Shown: piece by piece, positions 2,233-55,028 of the stretch | How the letters are laid out: each line of letters begins with the position of its first letter | Position numbering within the stretch: position 1 is the first letter of the stretch | DNA from: Fomitopsis serialis | Taxonomy: Eukaryota > Basidiomycota > Agaricomycetes > Polyporales > Fomitopsidaceae | Assembly (NCBI RefSeq): GCF_022376445.1 | Contig: NW_025954970.1 | Span: 372,001 to 436,000 of the forward strand | Length of the DNA stretch: 64,000 bases | Reading direction: 5' to 3' | Notes under the pieces: model-generated | The model's input: the letters and a program-made list of their open reading frames with translations, nothing else | The model's database searches: none | Told to the model about the DNA's origin: nothing | Translations under genes and position numbers: made by a program

Positions 2233-3545
2233 ATATTGCAATTGTATAGTAAGCAGTTCACATGCAATTGTCGGAAGGAACAGATGACAACACTTCAACT
2301 ACGGATGCAGACGCGATAAACGAGCCATCAACCAATTCTAAGACTGATTTCTGGGTGCTTGACTGTGTCTGAATAGTTCGATCTTCGTTCTATATTTCTG
2401 TGACTTATTTTCTCGCTTCGCTCGCAGCGAAAGTAGTGTACAGGCGCCGAAAACGGTGCATGTGATGTAGTCGAAAATGCGTTGGGCCTATCTTAGACGT
2501 CAATGTGTGGTTATAGTCGGATGCTAGATCCGTAGGAACACTCACCAGAGGGATAAAACCACTGGAATGAATTTCTCCGCGAGGCCCAAGCTCTCCCATT
2601 GCATCGCACAGACCAGGGCGCAGGTGGAAAGCGATGCCAATTTCAGCAGGGCTGTTGTTACCGCTGGCATGGAAGCACCTGCAAGTTCCACGGAGATGTG
2701 ATATCGACGTCTGGTATTGAGTGGCTCGATACTGGCTGATAACGCAATGCATGGACCACTCAGCCCACTCAGCCATGGATCATATGCACTTAGCCAAGTC
2801 ACATCAGGCCTGCGGGTCGATGACAGGGATTCGGAAGGAAAGCGTGACTTTGCTGACTATGCTCGCTGGAACTCCACTTGATGAAACCAAGAATAATACT
2901 GTGGCGGAAGAGCAAGGTGAAGTTGGCTTCGGAGATGATTTACACCTTCATTGTACAGGAAGCACTCGGGGTAGAGCGGGGTTAGACGCTACTCGGGTTG
3001 GTAAACACCTAAAGCGTGTCGCGTCAATACTGCGCAAGCATGAGCCAATGACAAAGCGAACATATATGGCGACCCAAGTTCATGGAGATTGTTGAGGAAG
3101 CATAAGCCTTGTGAGTAGCTGCAAAGAGGCTTACTGTAAGCTTCGCGGAGTGAGCGGAACTTACTTACAAAATAGAGCATTTCACGGATCAGCCCTATTG
3201 CGATGTCATCCATTGACTGTTAGGCATGTCGAGAGGCTAGCACATGGGTTGTCAGAGATACAATGTCCGGATACAACTAACGATACAGCCTGTGGAGAAG
3301 CCACCGCGGGTATACAGAGCCGAGACCAATGTCGTGAACAAGCACGAGAGTGTCAATGATGGCACGCCTTCGACGAGGTTCTTACACGAACGTATATATG
3401 ACCTCAAGAAAGCTTATACGGCGTGTGATGAACGCGTTTCGATGACAATGAGCGAGCATAACGCACTCACCAGCACGCCTCCCCCGATCTCGCCGAATGG
3501 ACATGAGGGCAGGGAGATACTTCTGCGCTGCTGTCTCCTTCCGCT
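2233..3545. other. Gene-poor stretch between transposase and DAD4
   Basis: About 1.3 kb. Several open frames of 80-135 codons exist on both strands (for example 2721-3095 and 3244-3651, plus), but none shows a motif, a splice-joined extension or a composition I can defend. The last one overlaps DAD4 on the opposite strand. It may hold the transposon end and the DAD4 3' UTR. Confidence 0.4.
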
Positions 3546-3827
3546 TCATTCATCTTCAACCACTGCTCCCTCTGCTGCTCGCGTTGCCTCTAGGTTATAC
3601 TGCACGTTCTTCCTGTACTTGGTCACCAGATCAGCGGCTGTCTTCACGTGAGCATTGGCTCGTATGACTTCCTCTAGACAGTGGTTGAGTTCAACGACCA
3701 TCTCAGTGCACTTGTCCTAATGTTGCACATCAACGTAAGGACGCCACGGGGGGCATGCACTACGAACCGCATTCTTGATGATGCGTTGAAGGAGGACATT
3801 CTGGCGCTCCGCGTGGGGGTTCTCCAT
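3546..3827 (-). CDS. DAD4: DASH/Dam1 complex subunit Dad4
   Basis: Small kinetochore protein. In fungi the DASH/Dam1 complex couples kinetochores to spindle microtubules, and Dad4 is one of its roughly 70-residue coiled-coil subunits. Seen: exons 3768-3827 and 3716-3546 with a 51-nt intron (3717-3767, ending TTAG). The join gives an uninterrupted 76-residue protein. It begins MENPHAERQNVLLQRIIKN, matching the remembered Dad4 start (MENPHE...), then has VELNHCLEEVIRAN and YRKNVQYNLEAT, the family's conserved C-terminal block. Length agrees with the family. Both exons are too short to stand out as open frames, so the gene is easily missed. The next minus-strand coding fragments start about 570 bp upstream. 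Confidence 0.9.
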
Positions 3828-4392
3828 GCTCGATGACCAGGTGAAAGCGTTCCTTTACTATACAGTCCAGTCTAATTAGCATTCCGTCGCATCATGGTTT
3901 AGAACCTACCTTGAAGAAAATCGAACGTTGCACAAGTCGAACACAACTAGTGACACCGCACGCGGTCTGGACGGTTCACTGTAGCGTTGCTGTAGCGCGT
4001 CGTTGCAGTGGAACCCGGGCGGGCCGGGCCTGGTCGCGTCGGTGGCGCACCGGCAAGTGCCGGGTTCAAATAAACTGGCAAAGCCTGCGCTCACTTGAAC
4101 TCACCCACCGCAGCGTGTTCCCCTCTCCATGTATCGTTTAAATCGGCCAGTCTCGATATGAAACTTGCACTCTCTATCATCCACCTTGAAGGGTGCATGG
4201 TTCATCGCGTCACAGCTGTTCGTTGTGAAGGAATCGCGGCAATTTGCATGCTCGCTTTGGAAGGCGTGATGAGGGATTGCTGAGGTACTGACCTCGGCTA
4301 CCAAGGCGGTTTTGGTACGAGCTAACGACTCAGTACGTCCTTATGAGCCTCATGATTCAGGTATTCTCGCTGACATACGAATCACTTGGGTC

Positions 4393-5415
4393 TTAGGGCC
4401 GGCTATGCAGAATGCGAGTAAGGGTATCATCGATTGAACCGACCTTCGTGGTCCCCGATGAGCAGGTACGTCCGTCCACGGTTCCAATGCGCCAGGTATC
4501 TTGGACTGTCGGCGGGGAGGGGCATTTTGGGCAGTACTGCCCGTTGATTGCTGTCGGACACTTCAACATGATTTCACTCTCGCGCAGAGACCGATGACCG
4601 CGTAATGCGACACGTCGTGCAACCCCTCACCTGTATCACGGGCGTGCGGACGCGCCGACCATTTGCATCTTGCTCTTAGGACGGAATGATCACGCCAGCG
4701 TTGCATAGACTGGTGTCTTTGTCTGGTGCATCGTATGCTCGTGTTGCAGCCTTAGCTTCTTCATCAGCGTCCAAGTTCCACATTTTCTCTAGGCCGCTCG
4801 AAAGCTAGCGGCATCGGTGCTGTGTATGCGGGTGAGCTTGCCACTATACTGAAGCGCATCGGGGTCCACACATCTCAACGTCTTGTCAATCAGACCTTCA
4901 TCCGGTCATATTGCGTCTCGTTCGCAATGTCCGCGGCTATAGTCTCGATCAGCTCAGGATCACCAGCGCTCTCGTGCTTGCAAGTATCGTCGCCTTGTAT
5001 GATTTCCGCGTTGTTTCCGGCCCAGTCTCAACGCTGTCCTTACAGTGCAGTGAGTCCTTGAGATCTCGAAACCTTGGAAGTCCGAGGAACTCATTCATAC
5101 AGGTTGCTCCCATGCGCATGCGCACATATGCATACCTCATAGAACACAATCGCAGCTTGTATACTTATGCTACATTCACTCAGGTCATCCGCTCCTCCAG
5201 ACTTCCCTCGCGCGCGCCGGCGGGTCGGAAGGTTTGGGTCGGACGGCATCACGGCTACGGGAGAGAGATCACTCCGCGACTGCTGCACAGGATTGAAAAG
5301 GCCGTGCAACGCGACCGCGCTTGACACTCACACGGCCTTGCTCATGATCGATGGTGATACGAGCGCGGTCGGGTTCAGACAGGTGTGTCGTTCTGGGCGC
5401 CTGATGGGCCGTCAT
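4393..5415 (-). pseudogene. Unidentified fragmentary coding region, minus strand
   Basis: I do not recognise this gene. Reading from 5415 there is a plausible first exon (MTAHQAPRTTHLSEPDRAR) followed by a GTGAGT donor. Further segments follow in order: SRSDLSPVAVMPSDPNLPT; CKHESAGDPELIETIAADI with ANETQYDR; DEGLIDKTLRCVDPDALQY with SGKLT; EKMWNLDADEEAKAATRAY with DAPDKDTS; and near the end INGQYCPKCPSPPT with DTWRIGTVDG. The segments are colinear, on one strand, with protein-like composition and several plausible GT-AG junctions. Two joins, near 4925 and 4795, need one extra base to stay in frame. Either a real multi-exon gene with sequence errors or a decaying gene. The cysteines CPKC near the end might bind metal, but no family is assigned. 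Confidence 0.3.
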
Positions 5416-5804
5416 GTTCTGTCAGGCACATGCATCTGGTTACCCTGCGCGTTTCGAACATTGATATTCGGGACGAGACCTCTGCCTCGGAGCTGCATTC
5501 CAATTTGAGCAGTACCAAGCCTTTATACTGCTCAGTCTGTTTCTGGGAACAATGCGGACGACTAACGAATGTTAGAAGGACTCGGGGAGCCCATCCACAC
5601 GAGCGGCACACCGTCACCGGCGGCATGCTAGTACGCCCGATCTGTTAAGTAACGGACAAGTAACGGATCCGACTGATTCGAAACTCAGGGCGTGCCGTTT
5701 GCGCTGGCCCCGGCACAACGTTCAATAACACGTTTGATCGGTATCAACCCCGCCAACTCTGGCCAATCGCATTGCCGTACGCGCTTGGCGCTAGCGCACT
5801 CAAC

Positions 5805-5947
5805 GCGGGTTTAAATGAACGCTAGCGTCGTCCCTTCCCCCAGCTCCTCACCCCTTCACTTTCGAGCACAGAAGCCGGCACTGGTTGGTAAGTATTCCCG
5901 ACTTCGCGACATGAACGCCTGCTAATGATATCCCTACTGCCACATAG
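5805..5947 (+). promoter_or_regulatory. Promoter and spliced 5' leader of the module-repeat secreted protein gene
   Basis: A TTTAAATG element lies near 5810, then the leader motif GCCGGCACTGGTTG, and directly after it a GTAAGT donor at 5888. The leader intron 5888-5947 (60 nt) ends CACATAG. The same motif, donor position and acceptor-side pyrimidine-rich exon (CTTGCCTTCTTTTGTATC) recur before the genes at 15873 and 19769. The coding start is 6054. Confidence 0.55.
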
Positions 5948-6053
5948 CTTGCCTTCTTTTGTATCTAACGCATTTCTTGAATCTTGACGATCTCGACGCT
6001 CTAACGACACTACTTCCTCCCCCTTTTCCCATCACTTGCAATCTTAATTCACC

Positions 6054-7108
6054 ATGCGTGTCCCCGCTGCTGTTGTTATCGTCGCCTCGGCCGCTGTCCT
6101 CCCTGCTATGTCTATGCCGATGAGGTTAGTCCCGACTCTGTATCAACCTTAGAGTTGACCAGAGCTGATCTCTATGTTTGCATAGCAGCGAGACCTACGA
6201 TATGTACGCCCGTGAGGCCCCTGCACAGGGTAGCGGCGCTCTCGGTCTTGGCACGCTCTTCAAGATCGGCCGTCACCTCATCCCGTACGCACTTGTTTTC
6301 CACGACGTAGTATTGTCTCTCACACTGCAGTCTGCGCACACAGGCACAGTAGTGGCAACAGCAACAGCAATGGCAACAACGGTCAGAAACAGAAGCACCG
6401 TCGCGAGCTGGAAGAGCTCTTTTCTCGGTATGCTTCGTTGTTGGCTGTCATGTTCATATCCTGACGAGAAGTGGACAGTGAGGAATTCATCGAGCTCCTT
6501 GCCCGTGAGATGGAGGCAGACGAAATATACGCCCGCGAAGCCCCTGCACAGGGCAGCGGTGCTCTTGGTCTTGGCCTCCTTTTCAGAATCGGCCGTCATT
6601 TCATCCCGTACGCATTTGCTTTACACGACGTAGTATCGTCTCTCACACTGCAGCCTGCACACACAGGCACAGCAGTAACAACAACAAACACCGCCGTGAC
6701 CTTGAGGAGGTGGATCTGTGGGAGCGAGATGTGCCCGAGGAGAGTCTCTGGGAGCGTGAGCTTCCCGAAGAGGAGTTTTGGGCTCGGGATGTTCCTGAGC
6801 AGGAGTTCTGGGAGCGTGATGTGCCCGAGCAGGAACTTTGGGAACGCGAGGTTCCGGCTGCGGCGGAGGGCAGCGGTGCTCTTGGCTTTGGTCTTGTGAA
6901 GGATGTTCTCAAGGCTGGCTCCCACCTTTTTGGGTAAGCATCCAGTTCGCCCACCGTGCTGTGCCATCTCTAACGCCACGGTTATGAATATAGCCACAGT
7001 GGCGGCAGCAGCGGCAGTAACAACCAGAACAACCAGAAGCAACGTCGCTCTGACGAGTTCGACGACCTCTTTGCTCGGGACTACGAGTACACCTACGAGT
7101 GGGAGTAA
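6054..7108 (+). CDS. Secreted module-repeat protein with dibasic (Kex2-type) cleavage sites
   Basis: Six exons: 6054-6124, 6186-6284, 6344-6427, 6479-6607, 6667-6933, 6994-7108. Together they give an intact 254-residue protein. A signal peptide (MRVPAAVVIVASAAVLPAMS) is followed by three diverged copies of one module: GSGALGLGTLFKIGRHLIPH, GSGALGLGLLFRIGRHFIPH and GSGALGFGLVKDVLKAGSHL. Each is followed by a Ser/Asn/Gln-rich linker ending KHRR, KHRR or KQRR, then an acidic segment. The phase-2 intron sits at the same codon in all three modules, so exon and intron were duplicated together. Between modules 2 and 3 lie five WERDVPEE-like decamers. Known: repeat proteins with RR/KR sites after a signal peptide resemble fungal Kex2-processed precursors. 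Inference: cleavage could release short basic, helix-prone peptides and acidic partners. A structural wall or surface protein is the alternative. No database family is recognised. Confidence 0.75.
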
Positions 7109-7986
7109 GCGGTATCGCTGTGAAGGTTGAGATGTGGGCCAGGAAGTACTGCGCTAGATATCCTCGACGTTGTCATATTTCACCTTCGGAAATGCTATGA
7201 ACGGTGGGGAGTTCACTATAAACTCGACGATGCGAAGGGGTTATGGTGCAACTTCTCTGCTTCTAGCAATGCCAAGACTAGTATTCGGTCGCATCATAGT
7301 TGCTGTTGCTGGCATGTCAGTATAACTTATTGACACCCATCGAGATGAGTAACTGCATATGCTGTCGTGAGTCGACGGCCCATCACATTGTATTGTATGG
7401 CAGCAAGTATGCCAACCTGGTTAATTACGAATGGCCCAGTCTGAGCGTGCATGTTCTGATTGAGTAATGGCTGTGCAATTCCATCAACGTCCTGTTTTGC
7501 CTTCACCGATTACTGACGGATTACCAAGAGCGGCGGTCAGCGGGTTCGAGTCGCGGAGGCAAGTTGGTTCGTCCCCGTTGGTCAAGCTGAATGGCTTCGT
7601 CAGGCACCGAATATTAGCCTAGTGCCAAGTACCCCGTTCGTGGAGTAGTGCTAATCACTGTTCTCCTGTCCCAATCGGGCGAACAAACATCCTCGAGGAC
7701 GTGGATGCGTACCTAGCCTCGGCTATGTCCGTGCCACCTACACGCACCCACCAATGAGACGCCGTCCATGATCCGCACCTAGTATGCGATCTACGATCGG
7801 TGGCCATCGACGCTTTGACCTTTTCCCAAAATGACAGGTTGAGCGGTGGCCCCGAGGTATAAAGAGCCTGGCGAGCTTCCTGTCAAAGCACTGAACCCGC
7901 GCTCTTGCTTCATAATCACTTCCCGAGTCGATTGTCCGCTCATCCACCCATCATCCTCATCGTCGTCAATAAAGGCCCCCACCACC
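7109..7986. other. Intergenic region with TATA box of the HMG-box gene
   Basis: No gene seen in about 880 bp. A good TATA box (GGTATAAAGAG) at about 7857-7866 sits some 125 bp before the ATG at 7987. CT/CA-rich leader sequence (about 7935-7985) precedes the start. Confidence 0.5.
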
Positions 7987-9165
7987 ATGAATACAAACAG
8001 TAAGACAATTCCTCTTTGTTGTTCAGTGTCTCTTGTCTAACCGCCGTTCATTGTACAAGGCGCGGTACTCTCCTATCCGACTCCGGCAGTCTCACCGACT
8101 CCATCAGCGTACAGCTCTCAAGCTGCCCCCCGACCTCCTGTACCGACCCCACCCGCAACGGTCTATACCTTCACCATCGCGCCGTCCTCACCGCCCACCG
8201 ACGACCGACCTACAGAGCCCGTCGCATCGTCCAGCACTTCCGATGGTCTGCCGCCCGCCTGCTTACCACCGGACACCCTATCACTCCTAGAAGAAGCCGG
8301 CGTAAGCACAGTGCAGTGGGAGGCACTACTGAGGGAAGCCGAAGCACACGCCCAGAAATTCGTACGCGACACCACTACAGCCCTTCCAAGCCCGCCGTCC
8401 ACCCCCTCGCCGCCAGCAGAGGCCGATGGCCAGCAAGAACACGTCCCGCGGGCGAGAAACTGCTTTTTGATTTTTCGGCAATGCGTCAGCAAGGCTAAAC
8501 ACCTTCCTGACGGATTGCAGAAGCGCCAAAACCATCTCAGCAAGGTTGTGGGGTCCTGCTGGCGTGCGCTGCCTGTGGCGCGGAAGAAAATATTCAAAGA
8601 TGCTCAGGCGGTCGAGAAGGAGGCGCACCGAAGGAAGTATCCCGATTATATATACAAGCCAGCCCCCAAGGCAGCGAAGAAGCCCGTGCAAAAACGTTAC
8701 GCGCAGAGCGTCGCCGCCGCGGGTTCGTCATTCGCGTCAGAGAGGAAGGGCAAGGCGAAGGCCACCAGCGAACGTGGGGTTCGTGGGGTGGCTGCGGGCC
8801 ACATACAGCACTCTGAGGCGGAGTTGCTTCCTGTGCCACCGCCACAGGTACCCGTTCGCGAGGCCTCCGTCACGGTGGCGGTGCCTCCCAGCCTGCCTTC
8901 GATGAGGTGGCCGGCGGCGAGCTATGCCCTCCCTCCTGACGTCCCGGAAGACTGGTCGTACAGCCCTTCCACGTTTTTGCCGTGGCAATATACAGCCCCC
9001 AGTTCCGCGCCACCGATGGCGTACCAACCCTACTGGCAGTACGCGCCGATGCCCGTACCCGCGGCGCCCGTACCAGAACCAGCCCCATCATCGGAGCAGA
9101 TGTGGTGGGAGGACCCCTCCACATGGGCGAGGATGACCTGGAGCGACTGCACATCGTCATTGTGA
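7987..9165 (+). CDS. HMG-box transcription factor
   Basis: Two exons: 7987-7999 (only 13 coding nt, MNTN plus one base) and 8060-9165, with a 60-nt intron 8000-8059 (GTAAGA...TACAAG). Product is 372 residues. A Pro/Ser/Thr-rich N-terminus is followed by an HMG domain at about residues 135-205: RARNCFLIFRQ, then NHLSKVVGSCWRALP, KKIFKDAQAVEKEAH and HRRKYPDYIYKP. This matches the sequence-specific (MATA/SOX-like) HMG box of basidiomycete regulators, which usually reads RPxNAFILFR...YKYxP. The C-terminus is Pro/Ala/Tyr/Trp-rich and may be an activation region. Expected role: nuclear DNA-binding regulator, bending the minor groove at AT-rich sites. Target and pathway cannot be read from sequence. 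Splicing after a tiny first coding exon explains why the ATG is far from the main open frame. Confidence 0.8.
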
Positions 9166-10142
9166 AGTCGTACCTGTAGATACCCATAGATACCCACTGT
9201 GTCATCGCACACATTACTTATACCCATAACTTGAAGTGTTCGTACGTCTTCAAGTCAATTAGTCAGCAATAACGTCTTTACGTTTTCTCTAACGAACGTA
9301 CTTGAAGACTCGGAGACTCCGTATTGAGCACACCTCCTTCCTTGTGGCTTTGCGTCAGTAGGCCGAAAGGGCCACGACGCGGGATGTGGGATGAGACGGC
9401 CATCGATCGTCGTGGTAATGAACAAGGATGGGCGCTAGAACTGCACGTAAGTACTGATGTAACCAAAGTTATCGATCTAGCTCATTGTCAACAATATTAG
9501 TTTGACAACAGCGCGTTTCCCGCGTACGTACCACCGGCCGGTCAGTTACAGGCAATCGCACACTGCCAGTGCCACTGCCAGTGCGAGCAAGTGAGAGATC
9601 CAGTAGACACCGGGCGAGCGCCCACGCGCACGCGCCACACTCAAATTCGGCCGACGGAGGAGCCCTGAATTTGTCCACCCGCTGGCATCTTGCCGCCGGT
9701 CCCTGCCACCGTGTGCCACGTACCCCTCCTCACCGAATGTTCAACGAACGTGCCCACCAGGCTGGTACGGCACATACGTGACATCGTTCCAATACTTCAG
9801 CAACAGATAGAAATCCCATGGCATAACTGCGGAATCTCACATGCGCTTTTATGTCCGTGGCTCGTTCCACGGACCACTAATATCGTCAGAGTGTTCCCAG
9901 CGGGTGCTGATATCTCCTTGGAACGTCCTCGAAACGTCCTCGAATGGCGGAATACAAGTGAGCTACCCATTGTATGGAGTGTATTGCTTTGACTAAGAAT
10001 GATTCCGGCGTGACTCGCCTTCACCGCGACATGCTGGCACGGTCCACTGCTTACGAGTCATAACCTTCAATTGCATGCAATGTCTGTCAAAACCATCACA
10101 CCCTGTATTCATTCGACAATATGCACGCTAATTAAGCAACTA
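9166..10142. other. Intergenic region between HMG gene and cysteine-peptide gene A
   Basis: No coding region supported in about 980 bp. A short tandem motif (CTGCCAGTGC / CACTGCCAGTGC) occurs near 9560-9585. Otherwise it holds the two facing 3' ends. Confidence 0.4.
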
Positions 10143-10443
10143 TCACAGTGTCGCCGTCTGCGTAGACGTCGATGAGCACTCTTGACAGGGAATTGGGCAT
10201 TTGAAAGGAGGCTTGCACAGCGGTCTGTAGGCCTACGTCAGAAACCGGAAATTGACTGGTAGAAGGTGAGAACGTACTGAGCTGGGCAGCACGGCAGGTT
10301 CGAGTTCTGTGGCTGTGGGACGGCTGAGGCCGACATTGCCCTAGTACATAAGGCAAGTCAGCTCATATCTCCGAGAGACGAACGTTGTCAACATACAATG
10401 AAACAGCCGCGAGTGCGGCCACGAGGAGCTGCTTGGAGAACAT
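10143..10443 (-). CDS. Small secreted cysteine-rich peptide, copy A
   Basis: Three exons on the minus strand: 10443-10397, 10340-10278, 10224-10143, with introns of 56 and 53 nt. Intact 63-residue product. The signal peptide MFSKQLLVAALAAVSLAMSA ends near ASAVP. The mature part starts with a short Pro/Gln/Asn segment, then six cysteines spaced CC-x5-C-x5-C-x3-C-x2-C, including KCPIPCQEC, and ends in a Ser/Thr tail. Minus-strand TATAAAA lies at 10513-10519, about 70 bp before the ATG. Copies B and C have the same three-exon plan, the same intron phases (2 and 2) and near-identical first exons. The six-cysteine pattern with a single CC pair does not match hydrophobins (eight cysteines, two CC pairs). 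Role unknown; an extracellular effector-like, signalling or antimicrobial peptide is possible, and no family is recognised. Confidence 0.75.
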
Positions 10444-11764
10444 CTTAAACGATGAGGTGTAGCTTGAAGTGCGAAGGACAGGCTGCTGAACGAACAGCTG
10501 CTACGGTGAGCATTTTATACTGCGCCCCTCAGCTATTACGAGTAGCAAAGCAAATGATCATGAATGAATATGACAGGATGACATAGTGGTGACATTGGGC
10601 GAGCCCAGAGGGCGTTTGGTCAAAGTCGACGAGACGCGTTTCAGATATCAAACGGCCGAGTGTACTCGCCGCGTCTTTACTCGTTGCCCGATCACCAGCA
10701 TTAGAGCGCCAACGCCCTAGGCTGCAGGAACGTGCAAGGAACGTGCTTCACCGTCAAGGAGCATCCGAGGTGCGACTCCCAGACGCAAAAAGTCAACACT
10801 GTTAATACTTGTCCTATTACACCAGAGCATGCGTCGAAAGGCGATATTACCAGAATTTCGATTGGCGTAGCATAGTCAACATCCGGCCATACGATCCACA
10901 AGAAAGGAACCGGAGTCCGATGTGAATATATTTTGCACGTTATACGGGGTTTTCCCAAGTGAGTGTGCGCCCGGCGACACATAATGTGGCGTTAACCAGA
11001 GTCCGACGTCGCGGAATCAGGAACTGATGCTGCGCCGCCGTGGCGGGGCGCCCTGGAGAAATGGAGAGGTACGTGATAACAATGCATGCCTGTCGAAACT
11101 CATGTGCTCACGACGCTCCTATACACACATAGCAGCTAAGGCCGGACAGCCAGCGTCACCGCGTACTTGGTATTGGGAGTCACTTCTTCCTAAGGACAGA
11201 ACACAGGCTGACACGTAATGAGAGTAGTTCTAAGTGATCATGGTTACGTCGTGCATACTCTGTCTCACCAGTATAGCTCTCGTACTGACACGGCGTCATA
11301 GAACGAGCATTGCAAATGTGGCGGTTCGATTGGCGTAACAAAGCCTAGCGGATGCCTTCGTGCGTACTGTGCGACGTCAGGGTTCGTTGTGTCTACTCAT
11401 ATTGAGTGCCAGGGGAAGAAAAGACTGTTCATGGTTCCAAGCAGGAGTTATCGCTGATGACATCCAATCCTGCTCTCTCGGAGCTGGCCCCAATCTTCGT
11501 GAAGATCCTTCTCGGCACGCTGCTACTCGAACGTGGTCAGCGGTCCTTGCAATGCCACAGGCAGTTGTGCAGCAGAGATGCCGCCGACTTTATTGATGAC
11601 AGGTAAGCTGGTTATTGCATAGCTATCACTCCGTACTGACACGACTTTCGAAAATGTGCGTATGCCTCATATGAAATCACAGAGGACACAGTTCTGAGTT
11701 ATTGACTTTCTGTACAGACGTGGCCTCCAGAGTAATACTAACACAGCATCGCCGACGTTGTCGA

Positions 11765-12038
11765 TTAGCACTGTCGGCAAGGGATGGGGCATCTCACAGG
11801 CACAGGGCCAGTGCAGATCGGCCTGTAAATTGAGCTCAGTCCACACTTTCTCTCGTTGAAGGTGAGTACGCACGGGTCTGGGCAGCACGGAAGATTGGTG
11901 TTCTGCGGCTCTGGTACAGCCGAGGCTGACATGATTCTGTACCAAAACCAGTCAGGGCGCGGGTTCCTGCAAGAAACAAGCATCGACGTACAGCGAAGCG
12001 ACCGCCAATGCTGTCATGAGCAATTGCTTGGAGAACAT
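11765..12038 (-). CDS. Small secreted cysteine-rich peptide, copy B
   Basis: Exons 12038-11992, 11936-11874 and 11822-11765, with introns of 55 and 51 nt. Intact, 55 residues. Signal peptide MFSKQLLMTALAVASLIMSA, then VPEPQNTNLPCC and six cysteines spaced CC-x5-C-x7-C-x3-C-x2-C, ending RCPIPCRQC directly at the stop. It lacks the Ser/Thr tail of A and C, because its stop falls immediately after the last cysteine. The block CPIPC is shared with A. Flanking DNA is also homologous to that of A and C, so the locus arose by segmental tandem duplication. Codon changes concentrate in the mature region while the signal exon is conserved. Confidence 0.72.
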
Positions 12039-13306
12039 CTTCAACGCGAGATTGTGGATTTTTCTGAGCTGCGAAAGGTGTGTTACTGGATGAAAGGCGA
12101 GTACGGGGAAGACTTATGTAGTGCGCGCCGTCAACTACATAGACGGGTAGTTTGGCCCCTAATTGATCATTATGACAGTTGTCAGTTGGGACGTTGGGCG
12201 GACCCGGGGTCGATTGGACACAGTCAACAAGACCGTGACGTGTTTCAGGTACCAAGATGGCTCCGTGAAATCTACGTGTATTTTGTAGCTCGATCATCAG
12301 CCTAAAGCGTCAATACTTGCTTGAAATTACAGGGGCCATCGATTCCTACATCCATGAGGTACAGTCCTTTTCAGCATCCTTGCTCTCAGCTCGTACAGTT
12401 TGTCTAATTAGTAATGCTGCCAAGCTCATCAGATCTCAGAACGTCGGGCCGCTGCGCGGTATATACAAGTTGACCGGACTGCCTCGACAGAAACTGGCGC
12501 AGTGCTGCTGCGCTATGAAAAGGGGGATTGCTGTCCAACTCCATGTGCTCATGTCATTTGGCCATGTATCGCATACCCCTTGCGCACCTCTGTAAGTCAT
12601 ATTGCAGTCTAAAAGAGACGTTATGAATGTACGAGCTAACATCTGATGACAGCAGTTCGGCATGACTTAATGACTCGATGTTGCATCGTCCTTTCACTAC
12701 TGCATTCGTCTGCCACATTGTCATAGTGCAATGGTACCTCACTGTCCCGCCGGTCCTGACGAGCGTGGGGGACTGTTTGCGTTGAGTAAGCTCAAATATC
12801 GTATGTCATTGCTGACCTACCACTTCCGCAGGTTCCCAGGTGGATGAGGTAGTGGGCCATGGCTCTGTATGCATCTTCCCTTTTATGCTCGTGCACTCAT
12901 CGAACAAACCACATATCGCTTTGCATCGTAAATGGGAGGTGAGAGGCCAGTTTCGGCGTAAAGGTCATCCGAAAATCGTGACATTGCAACTGCTTCCAGC
13001 AAGCACGGTGAAACGATCAAAGGCCTTCCAACACATTGAGAGCCCTTGTGTCTCCTGTCGGACCGTACTCACAGAGCTACTGGATTCAGGTGAGTTGTCT
13101 ATCGCCGAAGATGCGTTACCTCGAATGTAAATGCCCTGAAGTATTATTGGCGTGTACATGTCTCGTGCGCTTTTGCGAGCGTGCATTGCGCCGCTCCCAG
13201 CGGTGTCTGCGACGCATGGTTCATACCCTTTTGAATTTGGTAGCTCATCATGTCTCGTGTATCGTCACTGCATATAGATTGTCTAGATCGAAGCACATCA
13301 GAACTG

Positions 13307-13625
13307 CTACACAGGTGTCGTCGTCGTAGTCGTAGTCGTGGACGTTGACGAGCATTGTTGACAGTCTGGGGAAATCTGGGGAATCGGGCATTTGCGGTGG
13401 AAGGGGCAAGGCAGTCTGTGAGCCTACGTCAGACTCCGGTGACTGCTTGATAGAATTTAACAGCGTACTGAGCTGGGCAGCACGGTAGGTTCGTGCTTTG
13501 GGGCTTCGGGGCGGCTAAAGCTGACATTACTCTGTACTAGCAAGTTAGGCTAGGTCTTCGATGGGTATGTCAACTTACAGTGAGCCGATCGCCAGTGCTG
13601 CCATGAGGAGTGGCTTAGAGAACAT
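13307..13625 (-). CDS. Small secreted cysteine-rich peptide, copy C
   Basis: Exons 13625-13579, 13531-13469 and 13415-13307, with introns of 47 and 53 nt. Intact, 72 residues. Signal peptide MFSKPLLMAALAIGSLVMSA, mature APKPQSTNLPCCPAQ, then cysteines CC-x5-C-x5-C-x8-C-x2-C. Relative to A, five residues (QISPD) are inserted inside the CPIP-C loop. The tail is a Ser/Thr run with seven consecutive Thr encoded by an ACG/ACT repeat, a likely O-glycosylated segment (inference). A CATAAAAAG box lies at about 13692-13700, and the sequence CTCACCGTAG is shared with the promoter of A. Same unknown family as A and B. Confidence 0.74.
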
Positions 13626-14230
13626 CCTGTGGAACGATGAGGAGCTTGCGGCGCGAAGGACGGGTTGCTGGACTAATGACGTCTACGGTGAGCTTTTTAT
13701 GCTATTCCCCTCAGCCCGCTGATTGACGAACGTGATAGAATGACGGTAGTGACATTCGGCGGGCTCTGGGGGAACAGTTGTCGCCGGTCAAGACCTGCGG
13801 ACGTGTTTCATGTCAGTGTCAAGAATCCGAGGTGAACCCGTTGGTTGCTGCTTAATCACCGGCCTGAGGAAATCAGCATCTCAGTTCGCAGGAGTGTATG
13901 TCGATTGAGGTGCATCCGATCTGCCTCTTTCAGACGCAATGAAATTTATCTCAACAGATGACGCTATTGAACACGGTCGAAATGCGGTCTTGTCAGAAAT
14001 CTGCTCGTGTAGCATAGTCGGGGTCCCGCCGCACAAGGTATTATACAAGCAACGACTCGGCGTCGCCGTTCCTGATATTGTTTACACGCTATTTTCAGGT
14101 TAGTCGTACACTGGCCGGTCAACAATGTGGCGCGATACTAAATGGTGTCAGACGTCGTGGGATCGGGAGCTAATGCTTAGTACGAAGGAGCGCTCGAGGA
14201 AAATGGAGAGTATGTGACAGAACGCAGGGC

Positions 14231-15600
14231 GGTCGGACCTCATGACTCCGTCCGTACGCCACCGTATCTAAGTACAAGCCGAGGTTGGACAGTCTGAATA
14301 CTGCAAGTCATATGTCACGGCCCCTCAAAGAGTAGATGCGATGATAGCAGGAATCAGCAGGCAAGTGAGGTTATCTGTTAATACGCGTGAGTAAGTCATC
14401 ACAAAGCGACGAGACCTCCCCGAGGCTGTAATGATGATCTGACGACTACATTCTTACCTTTGGCCTTTGTGCACACCGTAAGGCTGCACCATGAGAGGAC
14501 CGTTCGCGGCGTCGACGACGATGATAGAAGGTGTTATCAATCGTCTGACAGTCACACCAGCCTGAGCTTCTCTGTGGTACGCAGCTGATGCGTTGCTATC
14601 GTGTAGCTTGCGTAATTCGGTGTTTCTGAGTTTTCGTGCGTCCTCTTCCGAGTCCCATCGCTCAATTGATACTCAAGTGATCTTGAGTTGGCAGATTGCG
14701 TCGTGTCGGCTGTTCCGCGTTCAAGCAAACTGCGGACTACACAGTGAGCGCAGACCAATGCCTATATCTCCACTGAGCTGCCCACTTATATGCTACCTAA
14801 CACGTAGGACACATTGAACATGATACGGCGTGCCGCTGAAGCTTCGAAGACTCACCGTCTACGGCATACTTCCAGTCAGCTCTGTTTACGGTGAAGGTAA
14901 CCTGTGCTACTTCGTTATTCGGATAGAAATCCAACACATCTCAGACATTGATGGCGGTGAGTTTCTACTGTGGAGCAAGCAACTCTGGGGATTCCGTGGT
15001 CTCATGCTCAAATTAGTACTCCTTTCACTCAAGGTGCGTGTTATGTCTGCAGTTCTGGGCTTCCCGGCGAGCCTCGTTTGCAGTCTCAGGTGTGTTGTCG
15101 TGAGAAATCTCAAAATGCTGCCAGTGCATGCTGCGTTGCCTATGACATCGCTCAGGTCGGACAGAACTTGAGCATCGCCTTGCGTGCTCTGCATACGTAG
15201 CCACAGCCTTGCGCACTCAGACGATACACCGCATTGGCACGTCTTTCCCATTATGCCCTCGGCGTCAGCGCCAGATCATGATGTACTGGTGGTCACTAAC
15301 AGTGCCACCTGTGACTTTGGCTGTCGAGACACCACCGCGTCGCTCTGTACAGATCGTGACGCATATGATGTCAGTTTATCTAGGGTCTGAAGATGCGAAC
15401 AGACGTGTTCGGCCTTCAGAAACCCCAAACTCTTTCGTAAGTGGACTTCCGTGGATGTTTGTTGGTGACTTCTGGTCAGATAATCACCTTGCAGCGTGTG
15501 CAGTGCATCAGGCGTTGTGCGCCCAGTTGCGAACAAACTGCAACCAAACAAGCCGCCGTAGATGCGACTCACCGAGCACACCGAGGGGCGCAATGGTACG
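14231..15600. other. Region without recognisable gene
   Basis: About 1.4 kb. Open frames up to 114 codons on both strands (for example 14830-15171 plus, 14907-15251 minus, 15276-15593 minus) overlap each other and show no motif. The far right end is the promoter of the next secreted-protein gene. Confidence 0.35.
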
Positions 15601-15604
15601 ACGA

Positions 15605-15751
15605 CAAGCGTATAAGAGAGCGCATGCCGTATCTATCAACCTCAGCTCCTCCTCACTCAAGCACAAGAGCCCGGAAGTTGGTACTGGCTGGTGCGCACGA
15701 ATCCTCGACTGAATGTCGACAATTCAGATTGACGAGTTCCACTTTTTCTAG
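15605..15751 (+). promoter_or_regulatory. Promoter and spliced 5' leader, second copy of the shared cassette
   Basis: A TATA-like GCGTATAAGAGAG lies at about 15608-15620, then the leader motif GTTGGTACTGGCTG with a GTGCGC donor at 15691. A 61-nt leader intron ends TTTCTAG at 15751, and the next exon starts CCTTCTTCTGTTTACGATCC. Motif, spacing and intron length match the cassettes at 5871 and 19573. Confidence 0.55.
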
Positions 15752-15872
15752 CCTTCTTCTGTTTACGATCCTTACGCAGTGGTTCTCGTTGACGATTCCT
15801 GTTGCACGTCTGTTCTTCAAGTCCAATCTCACACTTCCCTGGCAACGGCTCTTACCTACGACCTTTGATACG

Positions 15873-16550
15873 ATGCGCACCTCTACTCTGCTCGCGTTCG
15901 TCCTCTCTGCGGTGGCCCTTCCGGCGTTCGCGTCGCCCATCCTGATTCCACGGAAGTTCTCAGAGGAGACATACCTCAAGTACCTGCGCGAGTACGTTCA
16001 CCCACTCCTGCGCTTCCATCGGAACCATCTGACAGGCCACACTAGACATGGCGGCACTCCTCCACTCGCGTCGAACTTCATTCGCCACGGCCCGGTTACC
16101 CATCCTCACGAGGTGGTCCACCATGCCAGAGTTGTCCCCGGAGGCTCACAACCTCCTTCGAAGTCGGACCGAAATGTGGCCTGGGCGTTCTATCGCCAGT
16201 CCTTGTACCACGACGGAGGCGATAACTACGGCAGACCTACTGGTCAAGGAGGCGCACATCCTGCTGAAGGCTCGCACCCTCAGTCGAGCGGCCAGCACCC
16301 TCAGTCAAGCGGCCAGCATCCTCAGGCGAGTGGCCAGCATCCTCAGTCGAGCAGTGGCCAGCAGCACCAGTCGAGCGGCCAGCAGCCCCACAGCGGTCAG
16401 TCCTCGGGCCAGAACCAGCACAGCGGCAACTCGTACGTAGATGCGTTCGACCGATTGATAAAATTGTTGGCTGATTACATCACGCTCACTACCCGGGCGA
16501 ACAAGGCTTCGGTGGTACCCAGCAGGGGTAAAGTTGACCCAATTATATGA
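15873..16550 (+). CDS. Secreted Gln/Ser/His-rich repeat protein
   Basis: Read as one exon of 225 residues from 15873. Signal peptide MRTSTLLAFVLSAVALPAFA is followed by a helix-like segment FSEETYLKYLREYVHPLL and a His-rich middle. Then come tandem hexamers of the form SSGQHP(Q) and SSGQQHQ at about residues 133-185, ending in a Ser/Gln/Asn tract. The first mature segment (EETYLKYLRE) resembles ETYDMYARE of the module-repeat protein at 6054. Together with the shared leader cassette this suggests a common origin. Unlike its relatives it has no intron after the signal peptide. A possible GTACGT donor at about 16434 would replace the last 40 or so residues; I prefer the uninterrupted frame. Likely extracellular or wall-associated; function unknown. 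Confidence 0.6.
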   Translation: MRTSTLLAFVLSAVALPAFASPILIPRKFSEETYLKYLREYVHPLLRFHRNHLTGHTRHGGTPPLASNFIRHGPVTHPHEVVHHARVVPGGSQPPSKSDRNVAWAFYRQSLYHDGGDNYGRPTGQGGAHPAEGSHPQSSGQHPQSSGQHPQASGQHPQSSSGQQHQSSGQQPHSGQSSGQNQHSGNSYVDAFDRLIKLLADYITLTTRANKASVVPSRGKVDPII

Positions 16551-24796: not shown

Positions 24797-26807
24797 TCAC
24801 ACCGTCCGAAGCCATGTCTGGCCTAGAGAAATATTGTCAATCATCACCGCAGAAGCGATGTTAAAATACACGGACTCGGGTTCTCGTGGCAGCGTTTGCG
24901 CCAGCGTTCTCAACAGACCGTCTGTCAAGTTGTGCATCTAATCAGCTTCGTCAGGGCATAGCATTGGAATCTACCTACCGTCAAATGGCGACGTTTCCGT
25001 GAACTCGCCCGATTCGAGATATCCACGTATGTGCTCGCCAAATTGCCTCGAAATTGGTGTCATTCGTCGGGAGAGGTTCGGCTCGAGTAAGGCGTCCAGA
25101 TGAATCGCCTCATCGGAGTCATCGTCCCTTGCTTCGTCCATAGCTTCATCCCTATAGCCCTCGCCAGACTGGCTGCCGTTGATATCTTCCATATTCTCGA
25201 TGAACAGATCATCTTGAAGCGCTTCGGCGCCATCAGCCTCTTCTTCACTGTTCAGCCCTTCTTCATCGACATCCTCGCCTTCTGAGTTGCCACTGTCTTC
25301 GCTCGTCTCGCAATCATGTCCATCGGCAGTCGTGATCGTCCACCATTGTGCTCTACCAATGAAACAAAAACGCTGCGGGCCGCTATCAAACAGCATTCTA
25401 CCTTCGCCGATGGAGATGATCCGGAGGGAGGGGATTTTGTCGGCGAGTTTAGCGGCCAAGTCCCTCGCGCGAACATTCCAGTTCAAGCAGATCATAAAGC
25501 GAGGAGATTTCTCGTCAACCGTATATTCGTACATGTCATAATCGACCATGCTTAAGCGCAGCGCGACCAAAGGCAGCCGCGAAAACGTCTTTGACGCGTA
25601 GTACTGCGGGGAAATTTCAGTCGGTTCCAAGAATGGTTCGGTGGCCGATGCGACATACCTCCCAGAACGATTCCCGCTCCATTATCCCGTATGACAGTCG
25701 GATGTCGAGATAGCGCAGATGAGGGGCAGTGCAGGTGAGGTTATACCAGAAAACGAATCCCAACGTCGCTGAGACCTCCAGAGACAGCACGACCGGTGAC
25801 GTACGGCGGGTGACGGACAGCATTTCCCAAGCCCTAATGTCAGGTTCGGGGACGAGCTCGAGCCAGCGGACCTTGCAGTCGATCTTCCAGCGCATGAAGT
25901 CCCTCGAGTCGCCATATGCGTAATCGAGGGATGACCAACATGCCTTTTCGGCAGACGCGAGCCAAGGTTCGTCCGTTATGGTAAGCCATGGCAAAGCGAG
26001 CCTCCGTCGGCCAATGTTAGAATCGATAGCGTTCACGTTGAATACAACGGGCCATTCGTCCATGATCGCCGTCGGGTCCGACCTATCAGTGATGAAGACG
26101 TTGTGAATGTTGGGGAATATACGGACAAGCGTAGCCATAGAGATTTGGCACTCCTGAACCCTTAGGTCCCTCACCGTAGGCCAAAGAACTGTGTCATGAT
26201 GAGGATCTCTGGTCATACGCATCGTGACCAACATGAGGGACCGGACGTGTTGGAGCATTGGGGATGAGAGCAGCGTGGTAGCGTCGCAGAGGTCATCCTC
26301 TTTGTTGAGACCGGATATGCATAGGTGGTGTGGCCTGAAAGATGCTTGCTGTATAGCTTGTAACGTCTTCGCGTGCGCAAGCCTCAACGTGAGGTTGGAC
26401 AAGCGCTCGAGAGCGCATAACGCAGTGGCCACTCGCGGATCTGCTGCTGCAAGCTGTTCAATAGGCTCCAAATCAAGGTGTCGCATGTTCATAGCCTTTT
26501 GAAGCACATCTGCCAAGAGTGCAGCGCAGCAGAAATCGCCCGCGTCGTCCTCCGCAAAGATGTTGAACGCGGTTCTGGCCACAAGAAGAGTCCGCACGCA
26601 GCGCGCCCGATGCCCCTCGCCAGCCAGGATATACAGGAACGTCGCCGTCATTTGTTGGGCAGTAAATATCACCAGCGTTGATACTGCTCGACGCACTGCG
26701 AAGGGATGGACTCGGCGCGATGTCATTGAAAGCCGTATAGCGTCGCCTTGGGACAGATAGGATATAACCATCGATAATGTATCATCATCAAGGTCAGATA
26801 AAGTCAT
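24797..26807 (-). CDS. F-box protein with acidic C-terminal region, copy 1
   Basis: Exons 26807-25659, 25603-24979 and 24921-24797, introns 55 and 57 nt. Intact, 632 residues. N-terminal F-box: MTLSDLDDDTLSMVISYLSQ then DAIRLSMTSRRVHPFA. A long region of degenerate Leu-rich segments follows (for example ATLVRIFPNIHNVF, RYLDIRLSYG). Exon 2 has LRIISIGEGRMLF and an acidic stretch (EDVDEEGLNSEEEADGAE), then the conserved block SRRMTPISRQFGEHIRGYLE. Known: F-box proteins are substrate adaptors of SCF ubiquitin ligases; Agaricomycetes carry large expanded sets. ATG at 26807 is chosen because copies 2 and 3 start at the equivalent residue. The third exon diverges after TLPREPES and is longer than in copies 2 and 3. 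Confidence 0.75.
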
Positions 26808-27215
26808 GATCAAATAGCTGAGGGATATTGGCGGAATCAAGCAGCAGTAGGTCGGTCGGCTGGAGGAGCTAAGATATTATAAGTATGTGGACGAAACAAA
26901 GTGAGGAGGCAAGGAGGAAAGGATCAATTGATCGTCGGAGGACTCATTGTATGTCTTATCACATGATACTACGGCGATGTTGGGCGTCCAATCAGTCTCC
27001 ACTGCGTAGTACGTACGGTGACTCTTACTTATGTCCCGCTCACTCTTTCTCGCAAACACTTGAGCTGTTCTGAGATGGACATCTGAACTTCCTGCATACC
27101 TCAAACTCGCTCAACATATAGGCTGTCGATCGACTTCGGTGCTGTGTTCTGGGCCACGGTCTCTAGACACAAGGCTCAAGTTTCTGGCTCTCGGGCGACT
27201 CGTTCAAGTTTCGCA

Positions 27216-30092
27216 ATGGGCTTCATGATGTCTTGCTGTCGTCGGCGACGTTCGCATCAGGGCGACTCGGAACCGCTTCTCCCAAAATATACTGGCCAGC
27301 CACGCGACGCGCCCGGGCCCGCAACCCATGTCGAGCGACTCGCAGACGTACTTGCCGCTTTCAAGGCCGGAAAGCTCCCTTCTCAAGACCAGGTTACTCA
27401 TGCTCTACAACGTATTCTAAAATCTCCTTTACTGGATGCAGATGCTAGGGTCGCCGATTACGGGTCGCTGAGCAACACCGGCCGGGAAGTTATCACGGAC
27501 ATGAGAGACATCGCTGAAGCGATAGTACAATTTGGCCTGGAGAAGAACGGTGCGCATAAATGCTGTTGATACATGTCATTGTCATGTACCTATTCCCTCT
27601 GTAGTCGACGACAAACTGCAGGACTTTTTCTATCAATGTCGTGTCATGGACTCGGTCCCCGTTCATGCAGACATCGCCGTCGACGTGAACCAGATTGCAG
27701 GAGGAGTGGCGCAAGTAGGTACTCGTTCATTTCTGACCTTTGCGAGGCTTGTCATAGACAATCCTTACAGCACAAGAAGTACCATCTGCAGACGAAGCTG
27801 GACGCGATATGGAAGAAATACTTGCTTCCCTTCCACATCTCTTTCGCGCTGTTGCATCCTCTGCAGCATTTCGCGCCGTGCTCTCGGATGTCTGGCTTAC
27901 CGCGAGAGAGATGCTTGCGGACGCAGCGTCTGACGTCAGCCAGGTCGCCTCCCAGGTCCAGACTACAGCCAACGACGTAGAACGCTCTGTGCGACCGGCC
28001 GGCTCGCTTAATGATGCGAAGGGGAAGGCACGAGACGTTGGCCAGGATACTCAGGAAGAACATCGAGATGTACACGCAGAAGATCTCGATCGCTCGCAGG
28101 AATCCCTTGTCGCTCGCATGCAGGAGGTCGTCAATTCCCTATCGTTTTTGCTACTTCCAACTCACTTGTATCACAGATCATGGGTCGTGCTCATCGGGAT
28201 CCGGCCCTTCATCGCGCACTACGAACGATCCTTTTCCTACTCCGCAAGTATACTGCGAAGGCTCGTAAGCTGTCCGACGCCTTGTCCGACGCTGACGCGC
28301 CAAAGATAACTCCGGTCATTTGGGCTGATCCTCCGCTCGCTAGTGCTTTCGATGATCTCAAAATCGTACTGGAACGTATAGCATCTGGACATTCGCTAGA
28401 CTCTGCTCTACACAACCTCGCCCTTGTTTCGACTGACATCGCGAATCTCCCTGCCGAGGCCACGCATGACAGCGAAGGCCGACACGAGCTTGGCCTGTAC
28501 TTCGGGCGTCTCTCAGCGTGGTTCGATCACGCCCTTGAGGATACTCAATACGTCTATTCTGCGGAAGGCCAGCAGGAAGCTAGTGAGCTCTACGCATCGG
28601 GAAGGCTGCTCGTTCAACAGGCCTCGGAGAGTCGCGCGGAATGGCTGGATCATATCCGAGGTCTTGCAAGTGAACTTGGCGCTTTCATATCCGCCATATA
28701 CTCGGATCGTACGACCCAACGTCTCATACGTGCGCTGGACACACTTTCTACTGATCTCGCCATGTTCGTCTCCGATGCCGCGGTGACGGGGCCTGCTCAA
28801 GTTCGGGAAACAGAGCGGACATGGCGCAAGCAGCTTCAACGTGACATCTTGGTCTGGCTGGTCCCTCGCGTCCTACGTGTCGTCAAGGCCATTCCTATGC
28901 CCAGAGTAGAGTACACCAGTCGGTCGCTGGACGCTGCGATTGATGCTCTGCTCGTTAGCGCATCTGGAGCAAACACTTCCGCAGCTGCATCTCTTGTCCC
29001 GGACCGCATCCGTATCGCGAACTACAGCGAGATCCAGGTTCAGATGCACGCGGAAGACCAGCGGAGCACCTGGCTACTAGGCCATGCTAGCGAACGAACA
29101 TCAGCGTACACACGTACAAGGGTCATGTTGACGGCATGCGCATCGCAGCGCGGGACATCGCCTACTACGTCCGCTACAAGGGCTATCTCATCGGGTATGA
29201 AGACCAGGGACTACTCAGCATCGAGGTCGGCGAGAGGCAGGCGCGAGGGCGAGGTCTCAGCGTCGACGTAGAACTCGAGTTCGAGGGCGAGCAAGACGGC
29301 GAACGTGCGGATTCTCACACTGCGCTGCTAGACTCGGTAGGCGATGCTACGGTGGAGGAGAGCTTGTTCCGAGTCACGGACGTGAAAGTGGACGTCCCGG
29401 GGCTCCAGTTATCGATCGACAGGAGCAAGCACTGGATCCTCAACAAGACGTTGCTACAACCTCTCGCTGGCCCGGTCGCACGCACAGCGGCGAGCTACGT
29501 GCTTGCTCAGCAGATCAGGACGGTGCTCGAGTCGTGCGGGCGACTCGGCGCGCTCGTCAAGCGCAGGGCGAAGGAACTCCATGACCAGCAGAGGTCAAGC
29601 GTCCAGGATACGTCGAGTCCTTCCTTCGAGGACTACTGGCAGGCGATACTTCAGGAAGTCAGCGAACCTGCATCGAAGGATGACGAATCAAATGACGAAG
29701 AAGAGAACAACGAGCACGTCGAGACGCACACAACGGCGACACTGAAGGGAGTGGTTCGCACCACAGTCACTCAGCACTCGCCTGAAGTGTCACGTCCACC
29801 GACGCCTGACGAGACCGTCCTTGCTGTGGGTGTGGTCCCGCAGATCTTACCAGGGAAAGGTGGACCGGCCGATGAGCTGGACGAAAACCATGAGTACGGG
29901 ACGAGGGACGTCGCGAGGGAGGCACTCGGCGAGGTGCAGGAACGCGTCGACGATGCGGAAGAGAGCCTACAACAAGCAGCTGAGCGGATGGTCGAAGTCA
30001 GGGAGTCCATCGACGAAGCTGCGCTCAGGGAGCAAGTGATAGAGAGGCTGGAGAGGAAGAAGAGCGGGTGGAGGAGCCGGGTTTTCGATTGA
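27216..30092 (+). CDS. HAM1-like conserved fungal protein, one frame break
   Basis: Exons 27216-27549, 27605-27718, 27771-28126, 28177-30092. A one-base break after 29123 separates TRTRV from HVDGMRIAARDIAYYVRYKG; restoring a base gives about 906 residues. The N-terminus MGFMMSCCRRRRSH combines a MGxxxS myristoylation-like start with a Cys pair, suggesting membrane attachment. Motifs: VERLADVLAAFKAGKLPSQD, WLVPRVLRVVKAIPMPRVEY, SLVPDRIRIANYSEIQV and KHWILNKTLLQPLAGP. From memory these belong to the HAM1-like family (HAM1-like N-terminal domain plus DUF4449-type C-terminal domain), named for hyphal anastomosis proteins. The C-terminal 150 residues are acidic and coiled-coil-like. Alternative donors exist at the end of exon 3 (28126 or 28129). 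The gene splits the F-box cluster and is on the opposite strand. Confidence 0.75.
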
Positions 30093-32380: not shown

Positions 32381-33082
32381 GTCCAGTGCGATCCTGAGGC
32401 ACACGGTACGTGCTGACTGAGGCAAGAAGAGGATATACGGTGGCAGTCAAAGGGCAGAGACGATGGAGGGATAGCAAGTGGGAGACTTAAGGGGCTAGAG
32501 TGCAGCATCCTCGTGGTACTACGCACGAGGCGTGCCACATCACGTACGTAAGACAGAATTGCAGGTCTTGCGCCGCAAGGCCTAGCCGTAGCCCCAAGTT
32601 CTTACGGTAGCACTTGAGTTTGAAGCTTGACAAACTGAGGATTTGAAGCCTGCTCCGAGTCGAAGCGCAAGCGCACCTTCTTATACAATGACACAATTTT
32701 ATGATTCTTGCATACTGCGCCGCCTATCATTCACCGACGGAGTCAAGCGCAACCTTCGGTAGATATTCTCGCATCCAAACCCTGCTCGAGTGACTCGGAG
32801 AGGGCCCAAGGACCCATAATTCAGATCTCAACTTTCAAGGCTTACGTAGCATTAGTCGTTCTCCTCATATGTCCACGCTGCGCCGAGTACCACCATGAAA
32901 ACGAATTCTACACATGCATGATGGCCAATGACCGACACCTCGCAATCGTACACTGGCACTTGCTATATCACAAAGGCGGATCAGCCCTCCATACTATTGA
33001 TATCTTACATGGTGCATGCACTCACCCATAAATAGGTATCTTGAGTCGCAGTCTCACTCACCATTTACAGTTGGACCACTCA
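32381..33082. other. Intergenic region in the F-box cluster
   Basis: About 700 bp. A 107-codon plus-strand frame (32708-33031) has no motif. No gene is called; this is the promoter of copy 2 and the 3' flank of copy 3. Confidence 0.4.
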
Positions 33083-54520: not shown

Positions 54521-55028
54521 GTGTTGTTGCGCGGAGTGCTCGATGCTTAGGATCTATAGAATTGCGCATCTTTTCTCTTTGGCATTGATTTGCTGTCGTC
54601 ACCACACGCGTTCCTTGCTATGCTCTGTACTAATAATATCGCTGCTGTGTACATATATACCTCGCATCATCTGCCACCTGGTTTGCCACTCATGTATCGT
54701 TGAACTATGTCATTTATCCGCTGCATAACGTGCAAGTTGATTTCAGAATAAGTCGTCACTGATGCTCGGTGCTAAGTACTAAGTGTCGCACGTGCAGTCT
54801 CTGTACTACCCACTGCTTACCTAGTTACTATCATCATCGACTGTCGCGCAACTGTGCCCCTTTGCCCTTCACATTCCATCGAAAGCCAGCTGTGCACCCT
54901 TTCGTCACAGTCCAAACAACCGTAAGACTCAAATCACTTGTGGGACGAGGACGATCTAACGGGTTCGGTTTGAGACAGGATTAGATAATAGCGACACCCG
55001 AACCTGTCGTGCTCTCGTAGCGCCACCA
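54521..55028. other. Intergenic region
   Basis: About 500 bp between the kinase stop and the next F-box gene. Nothing supported. Confidence 0.4.

Follow-up and report, generated by a model that had tools for sequence, protein, structure and literature searches.

One question raised by this locus of Fomitopsis serialis is whether three sets of tiny exons, lying one after another on the same strand, are genes at all; a second is what the short, cysteine-rich peptides that they encode could do for a fungus whose genus is described as brown-rot (PMC9019680). The first question can be answered with some firmness: the three units, here called copies A, B and C, are almost certainly real genes for secreted six-cysteine proteins. 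The locus also has a methodological side, since it indicates that genes of fewer than 75 codons, with exons of 47-109 nt, can be checked by comparing haplotypes within a single assembly.

Three small genes in a head-to-tail array

The array occupies positions 10143-13625 of the window (the whole stretch of 64,000 nucleotides that was analysed), from the end of the stop codon of copy A to the ATG of copy C, all on the minus strand. Three three-exon genes follow each other head to tail, with exon 1-to-exon 1 distances of 1595 and 1587 nt, and their spliced translation gives precursors of 63 (copy A), 55 (copy B) and 72 (copy C) residues. All six introns are of the GT-AG type, lie in phase 2 and measure 47-56 nt. 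Each of them also carries a branch-point-like pentamer, CT[AG]A[CTG], at 17-21 nt from its end, a loose motif scored without a control. The features of the array are the following, the TATA-like elements being consensus matches only:

10143..10224, minus strand: copy A exon 3, 82 nt; encodes cysteines 3-6 and the Ser/Thr tail up to the TGA stop
10225..10277, minus strand: copy A intron 2, phase 2, 53 nt long here and 52 nt on the second haplotype
10278..10340, minus strand: copy A exon 2, 63 nt
10341..10396, minus strand: copy A intron 1, 56 nt, phase 2
10397..10443, minus strand: copy A exon 1, signal-like, 47 nt
10513..10519, minus strand: TATA-like TATAAAA, 76 nt 5' of the copy A ATG
11765..11822, minus strand: copy B exon 3, 58 nt; ends in CRQC, without a tail
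11823..11873, minus strand: copy B intron 2, phase 2, 51 nt without an in-frame stop
11874..11936, minus strand: copy B exon 2, 63 nt
11937..11991, minus strand: copy B intron 1, 55 nt, phase 2
11992..12038, minus strand: copy B exon 1, 47 nt
12112..12118, minus strand: weak TATA-like CATAAGT, 80 nt 5' of the copy B ATG
13307..13415, minus strand: copy C exon 3, 109 nt; encodes the poly-Thr tail
13416..13468, minus strand: copy C intron 2, 53 nt, phase 2
13469..13531, minus strand: copy C exon 2, 63 nt
13532..13578, minus strand: copy C intron 1, 47 nt, phase 2
13579..13625, minus strand: copy C exon 1, 47 nt
13695..13701, minus strand: TATA-like CATAAAA, 76 nt 5' of the copy C ATG

Upstream of the ATG, about 90 nt can be aligned between copies A and C. 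The spacers outside the genes are alignable in patches only, and the tandem duplications therefore look old. Comparison of the flanks 8500-10140 and 14900-16500 gave no fourth unit, apart from the overlaps of the compared slices.

Copy A is adjoined by a 374-aa open reading frame that encodes an HMG box (8041-9165, plus strand; PF00505, E 4.5e-7), which is open in both haplotypes. The Pfam scan of the neighbours covered 20 of the 68 window ORFs of at least 150 aa, and six of these 20 were matched. F-box or F-box-like ORFs occur at 25617-26876 and 31175-32446 on the minus strand and at 54960-56489 on the plus strand, one of them above the Pfam cut-off and two just below it. HAM1-like N- and C-terminal domains (PF19343, PF14613) are found in two overlapping ORFs at 28015-30092 (plus strand), presumably one gene with an intron. 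Scanning the window for tRNAs and Rfam families returned nothing.

Two haplotypes and the spliced frames

The genome examined (66.2 Mb, 806 contigs) contains a contig, C360, that is collinear with window positions 2494-16384 at 96.4% identity, the alignment continuing to 25083. Copies A, B and C are all present on it, and we take C360 as the second haplotype of the array region. Over 9000-15500, 6424 bases are aligned, of which 261 are mismatched, and the 137 gap columns of this stretch all fall outside the nine exons; the six introns retain GT-AG on C360, and their allelic divergence is 6.1% (19/314). The 18 allelic differences found in exons consist of 12 synonymous, 5 non-synonymous and one stop change, which by Nei-Gojobori counting over the whole coding sequence correspond to a dS of 0.088, a dN of 0.012 and a dN/dS of 0.134. 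This synonymous excess belongs to the spliced frames (Fisher p 9e-5), as frames shifted by 1 and 2, taken as a control, gave 2 synonymous to 13 non-synonymous and 3 to 14 changes, respectively. The stop change affects copy A, whose TGA reads CGA on C360, where the next stop comes one residue later. In the poly-Thr tract of copy C, the three allelic differences are all synonymous, and the Thr tail is present in both alleles. Selection maintains copies A-C in exactly these spliced frames, and it is purifying. A previous sequence-only reading of this DNA had described a three-gene tandem family with a common three-exon plan and common intron phases, a description that holds, with exact coordinates, and that the alleles now back in the spliced frames.

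Divergence between the haplotypes is very uneven along the region, from 0-0.4% per 500 nt at 4.5-8 kb to 9.6% at 9.5-10 kb, with 7.2-8.4% at 11.5-12.5 kb. Opposite window position 18534, about 900 bases of C360 (20381-21281) are missing from the window haplotype, and identity in the adjoining alignments on the two sides is as low as 91.6% and 90.6%.

Of the three copies, one is public in the form given above, one under a doubtful gene model, and for one no named record was found. The expectation that automatic annotation would miss all three fails for copy C and in part for copy A. The spliced product of copy C is identical, residue for residue, to B0H18DRAFT_29998 (P0003) of Fomitopsis serialis. 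Copy A is represented by B0H18DRAFT_986233 (P0001), which matches residues 1-36 and then continues through a 22-nt second intron into another frame. As the deposited annotation, this model, with its cysteine-poor mature part, has to be considered, but an intron of 22 nt would be unusually short, and the frame loses the cysteines that are common to copies B and C. The alleles also contradict it: in the compared stretch of the P0001 frame, the 11 changed codons comprise 8 non-synonymous, 2 synonymous and one stop change, the opposite of exon 3 under the 53-nt-intron model, with 4 synonymous changes and one stop change. For this last reason we think that the P0001 model of copy A is wrong, and its being correct is highly improbable.

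For copy B, the 5.8 billion protein sequences searched gave no named record. There is an unspliced database ORF over it, listed with neither a source nor a name (P0002), which reads through intron 2. These 51 nt are open in frame in both haplotypes, and their retention would add two cysteines. They hold six allelic differences, and three of the five changed codons, counted by eye, would be non-synonymous, so the segment 11823-11873 looks like an intron in its behaviour, while a retained-intron isoform of copy B may exist. Two long unspliced ORFs over copy B (158 aa on the plus strand and 157 aa on the minus strand) were discarded, as on C360 they are interrupted by 4 and 6 stops and differ in length by 2 nt.

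Conserved cysteines and the search for relatives

The three precursors all start with MFSK; their residues 6-17 are hydrophobic (mean hydropathy 2.5-2.65), and A-x-A follows at residues 20-22. Cleavage after this motif, which we infer from the sequence, would yield mature peptides of 41 (A), 33 (B) and 50 (C) residues with six cysteines each and a predicted mass of 3.5-5.3 kDa; the 55-72 residues previously given for the secreted peptides thus hold for the precursors and not for the mature forms. The three copies have in common the plan CC-x5-C-x(5,7)-C-x(3,8)-C-x2-C, with spacings of 0,5,5,3,2 in A, 0,5,7,3,2 in B and 0,5,5,8,2 in C, and a CPIP motif, which is part of CPIPC in copies A and B, whereas in copy C an eight-residue gap takes the place of CPIPC. 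The pattern, the motif and the copy-specific spacing had all been read correctly, and so had the range of tails: ten Ser/Thr-rich residues past the last cysteine in A, none in B and fourteen with poly-Thr in C. The cysteine core is proline-rich and spans 21-26 residues, and proline and cysteine together make up 32-48% of the putative mature parts, whose net charge lies between 0 and +2 (pI 6.0-8.4). These parts contain no Kex2-type KR or RR, and by inspection the C-termini (TATL in A, CRQC in B, TTPV in C) show no GPI-type hydrophobic end. The unspliced cysteine pattern has 0 occurrences in the six frames of the window, as expected, because an intron splits it.

Comparison of the paralogues gives, for all codons, a pS of 0.52-0.71 and a pN of 0.18-0.19 per pair. 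In spite of this divergence the six cysteine columns are invariant, compared with 4 of the 15 other columns of the core (Fisher p 0.004); invariant columns amount to 15 of 22 in the signal (residues 1-22) and to 6 of 10 in the stretch between signal and core. The pN is lower in the signal (0.14-0.16) than in the core (0.21-0.26, some 1.5-1.6 times higher), where pS ranges from 0.42 to 0.82. Signal and mature part are both constrained, and the mature part differs mainly in the length of its loops and tail. Neither the alleles nor the paralogue core give any sign of a dN/dS above 1, the few codons affording low power for single sites. A conserved signal with a diverging mature region had been put forward as the pattern of effectors, signalling or antimicrobial peptides, with a comparison of dN/dS between copies by exon as its check: the faster core stands, while diversifying selection was not found and the alleles, with a dN/dS of 0.13, point to purifying selection, which weakens a reading of these peptides as arms-race effectors.

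The earlier suspicion that no known family has this cysteine pattern was borne out in the searches, with no Pfam or NCBIfam match above the cut-off and no convincing PDB match. Copy A had one weak Pfam match (DUF7327, residues 7-31, E 0.34; 11.4 bits, where the cut-off lies at 27), copies B and C had none, and NCBIfam matched no copy. Among PDB sequences, no E value was better than 0.49: copy A retrieved a single kinase, represented by two entries near 0.5, and the alignment of the copies nothing. The search of protein sequences, which requires shared 5-residue words and misses unannotated genes, returned this locus only, with 1, 1 and 24 candidates depending on the query, and no relatives in other species. 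Searches of the open-licence PMC literature gave no paper on these peptides. As a family, copies A-C appear to be undescribed.

In the genome itself, the precursors of A, B and C, the core of A and the DNA of copy C, used as queries, found no copies beyond the three loci on contig C2 and their C360 counterparts. The two matches to the core of A were copy A itself and its counterpart, B and C going undetected, and the four matches to the DNA of copy C covered C and A but not B; a diverged copy elsewhere could thus escape as well. Two weak matches, on C796 and C805 (E 0.27), were dropped, as they seem to fall in a zinc-knuckle-like stretch of an apparent retroelement. The degenerate motif TGYTGYCC-N12-TGY occurs 429 times in the genome versus 367 for its reversed control, which makes the count uninformative.

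Possible roles and known counterparts

In the explanation that we propose, the three paralogous genes would have arisen by old tandem duplication, some 1.6 kb apart. The first 22 residues would be cleaved after A-x-A in the secretory pathway, and three disulphides between the six cysteines would hold the 21-26 residues of the proline-rich core. In copies A and C the Thr/Ser tails would be O-mannosylated, and the peptides of 33-50 residues would work outside the hypha. As for what they would do there, we favour antagonism or defence against competing microbes or grazers, in wood or in the fruiting body, as the most likely role, a preference that we hold tentatively. The statement as a whole, from old tandem paralogues to extracellular disulphide peptides with this role included, could well be right, although we would put it somewhat below an even chance.

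Antagonism was ranked above a structural or enzyme-assisting role at wall or substrate, and above self-signalling, because the antifungal activity of cylindracin depends on disulphides (PMC11532979) and because genes for small secreted proteins (SSPs) are described as responding to bacteria in other fungi (PMC7105643). Against it stand a charge of 0 to +2, unlike that of the strongly cationic antimicrobial peptides, and the finding of no positive selection in alleles or paralogues; the protein search by shared 5-residue words, which brought no relative from another species, likewise counts against the explanation. Near-neutral charge and purifying selection place wall or substrate roles close behind: the core would bind a polymer of wall or wood, or an enzyme, with an O-glycosylated Thr/Ser tail as a stalk and no antagonism involved. 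The proline-rich core and the Thr tail of copy C, kept in both alleles, agree with such a role, as does the link drawn for saprotroph SSPs with enzyme recruitment to the substrate and with wall-related functions (PMC7105643). However, copy B has no tail, no domain passes the cut-off and the C-termini lack a GPI-type end. We consider this possibility rather unlikely. Lower still we place peptides that signal between hyphae of the same fungus in development, mating or the regulation of decay enzymes. Three short, secreted-looking paralogues with differing loops would suit this role, and Ssp1 of Pleurotus ostreatus has been discussed as a regulator of ligninolysis and fruiting (PMC7105643), but the copies have no Kex2 sites. 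A CaaX end is likewise absent from A and C, and the middle of the CRQC of B is not aliphatic. Even less probable are extracellular metal-binding or redox peptides, in which reduced thiols of CC and CxxC would bind Cu, Zn or Fe. All three copies do have CC and CxxC within 21-26 residues, with CPIPC in A and B, but a signal peptide would send them through the oxidising ER, whereas metallothioneins are cytosolic and rich in CxC, and CPIPC gives way to the gap in copy C.

Within our preferred reading of extracellular disulphide peptides, a more specific and rather doubtful possibility is that they are lineage-restricted microproteins on a fixed, undescribed CC...C...CPIP...CxxC scaffold, whose length-variable loops and tails would form a toolkit with separate targets; annotation would then catch the family only partly because its exons are tiny. 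If the scaffold is new, a wood-decay fungus would have supplied a disulphide frame that is compact and tolerates changes in its loops.

Several known systems resemble these peptides in part. The CC-C-C-C-C order is also used by some conotoxins, where it is known as framework IV; only this order was compared, and we take the likeness as coincidence and not as a family link. The precursors of basidiomycete mating pheromones end in CaaX and have no signal peptide, whereas copies A-C end in TATL, CRQC and TTPV after a signal-like N-terminus. The cysteine-stabilised alpha-beta defensin plan combines CxxxC with CxC, but it is incomplete here, with no CxC in any copy and CxxxC, by spacing only, in A and B. 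In hydrophobins the cysteines number eight and include two CC pairs, whereas copies A-C have six, a single CC and no Pfam match above the cut-off. The likeness to the hydrophobins described from wood-degrading basidiomycetes (PMC3879219) lies in being small, putatively secreted, cysteine-rich and multigenic. Copsin and plectasin, of the defensin type, are disulphide peptides of fungi (PMC11532979), as copies A-C would be if the inferred disulphides form.

Cylindracin/PRI3 of Cyclocybe is, like copies A-C, a basidiomycete protein of secreted type, rich in cysteine and of fewer than 100 residues. It comes from the mushroom fruiting body and is described as losing its antifungal activity on heating with a reducing agent (PMC11532979). 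Compared by description, it has 95 residues, eight cysteines and a Gly-rich, basic mature part, whereas our copies have six cysteines and are Pro-rich and near-neutral. Small secreted proteins are defined as shorter than 300 residues (PMC7105643), and at 55, 63 and 72 residues the three precursors lie well within this limit; their want of a known domain above the Pfam or NCBIfam cut-off is typical of the class, though not required. The SSPs of Pleurotus ostreatus are of about 18 kDa, and the main text of the paper describing them never mentions cysteine (PMC5674062), a difference, again by description, from the 3.5-5.3 kDa and six cysteines predicted for A-C. With ssp1-6 of that fungus they have in common shortness, a signal peptide (putative in A-C), a multigene organization and the lack of a known domain (PMC5674062; PMC7105643), and in these respects copies A-C look like orphan small secreted proteins of the common fungal kind.
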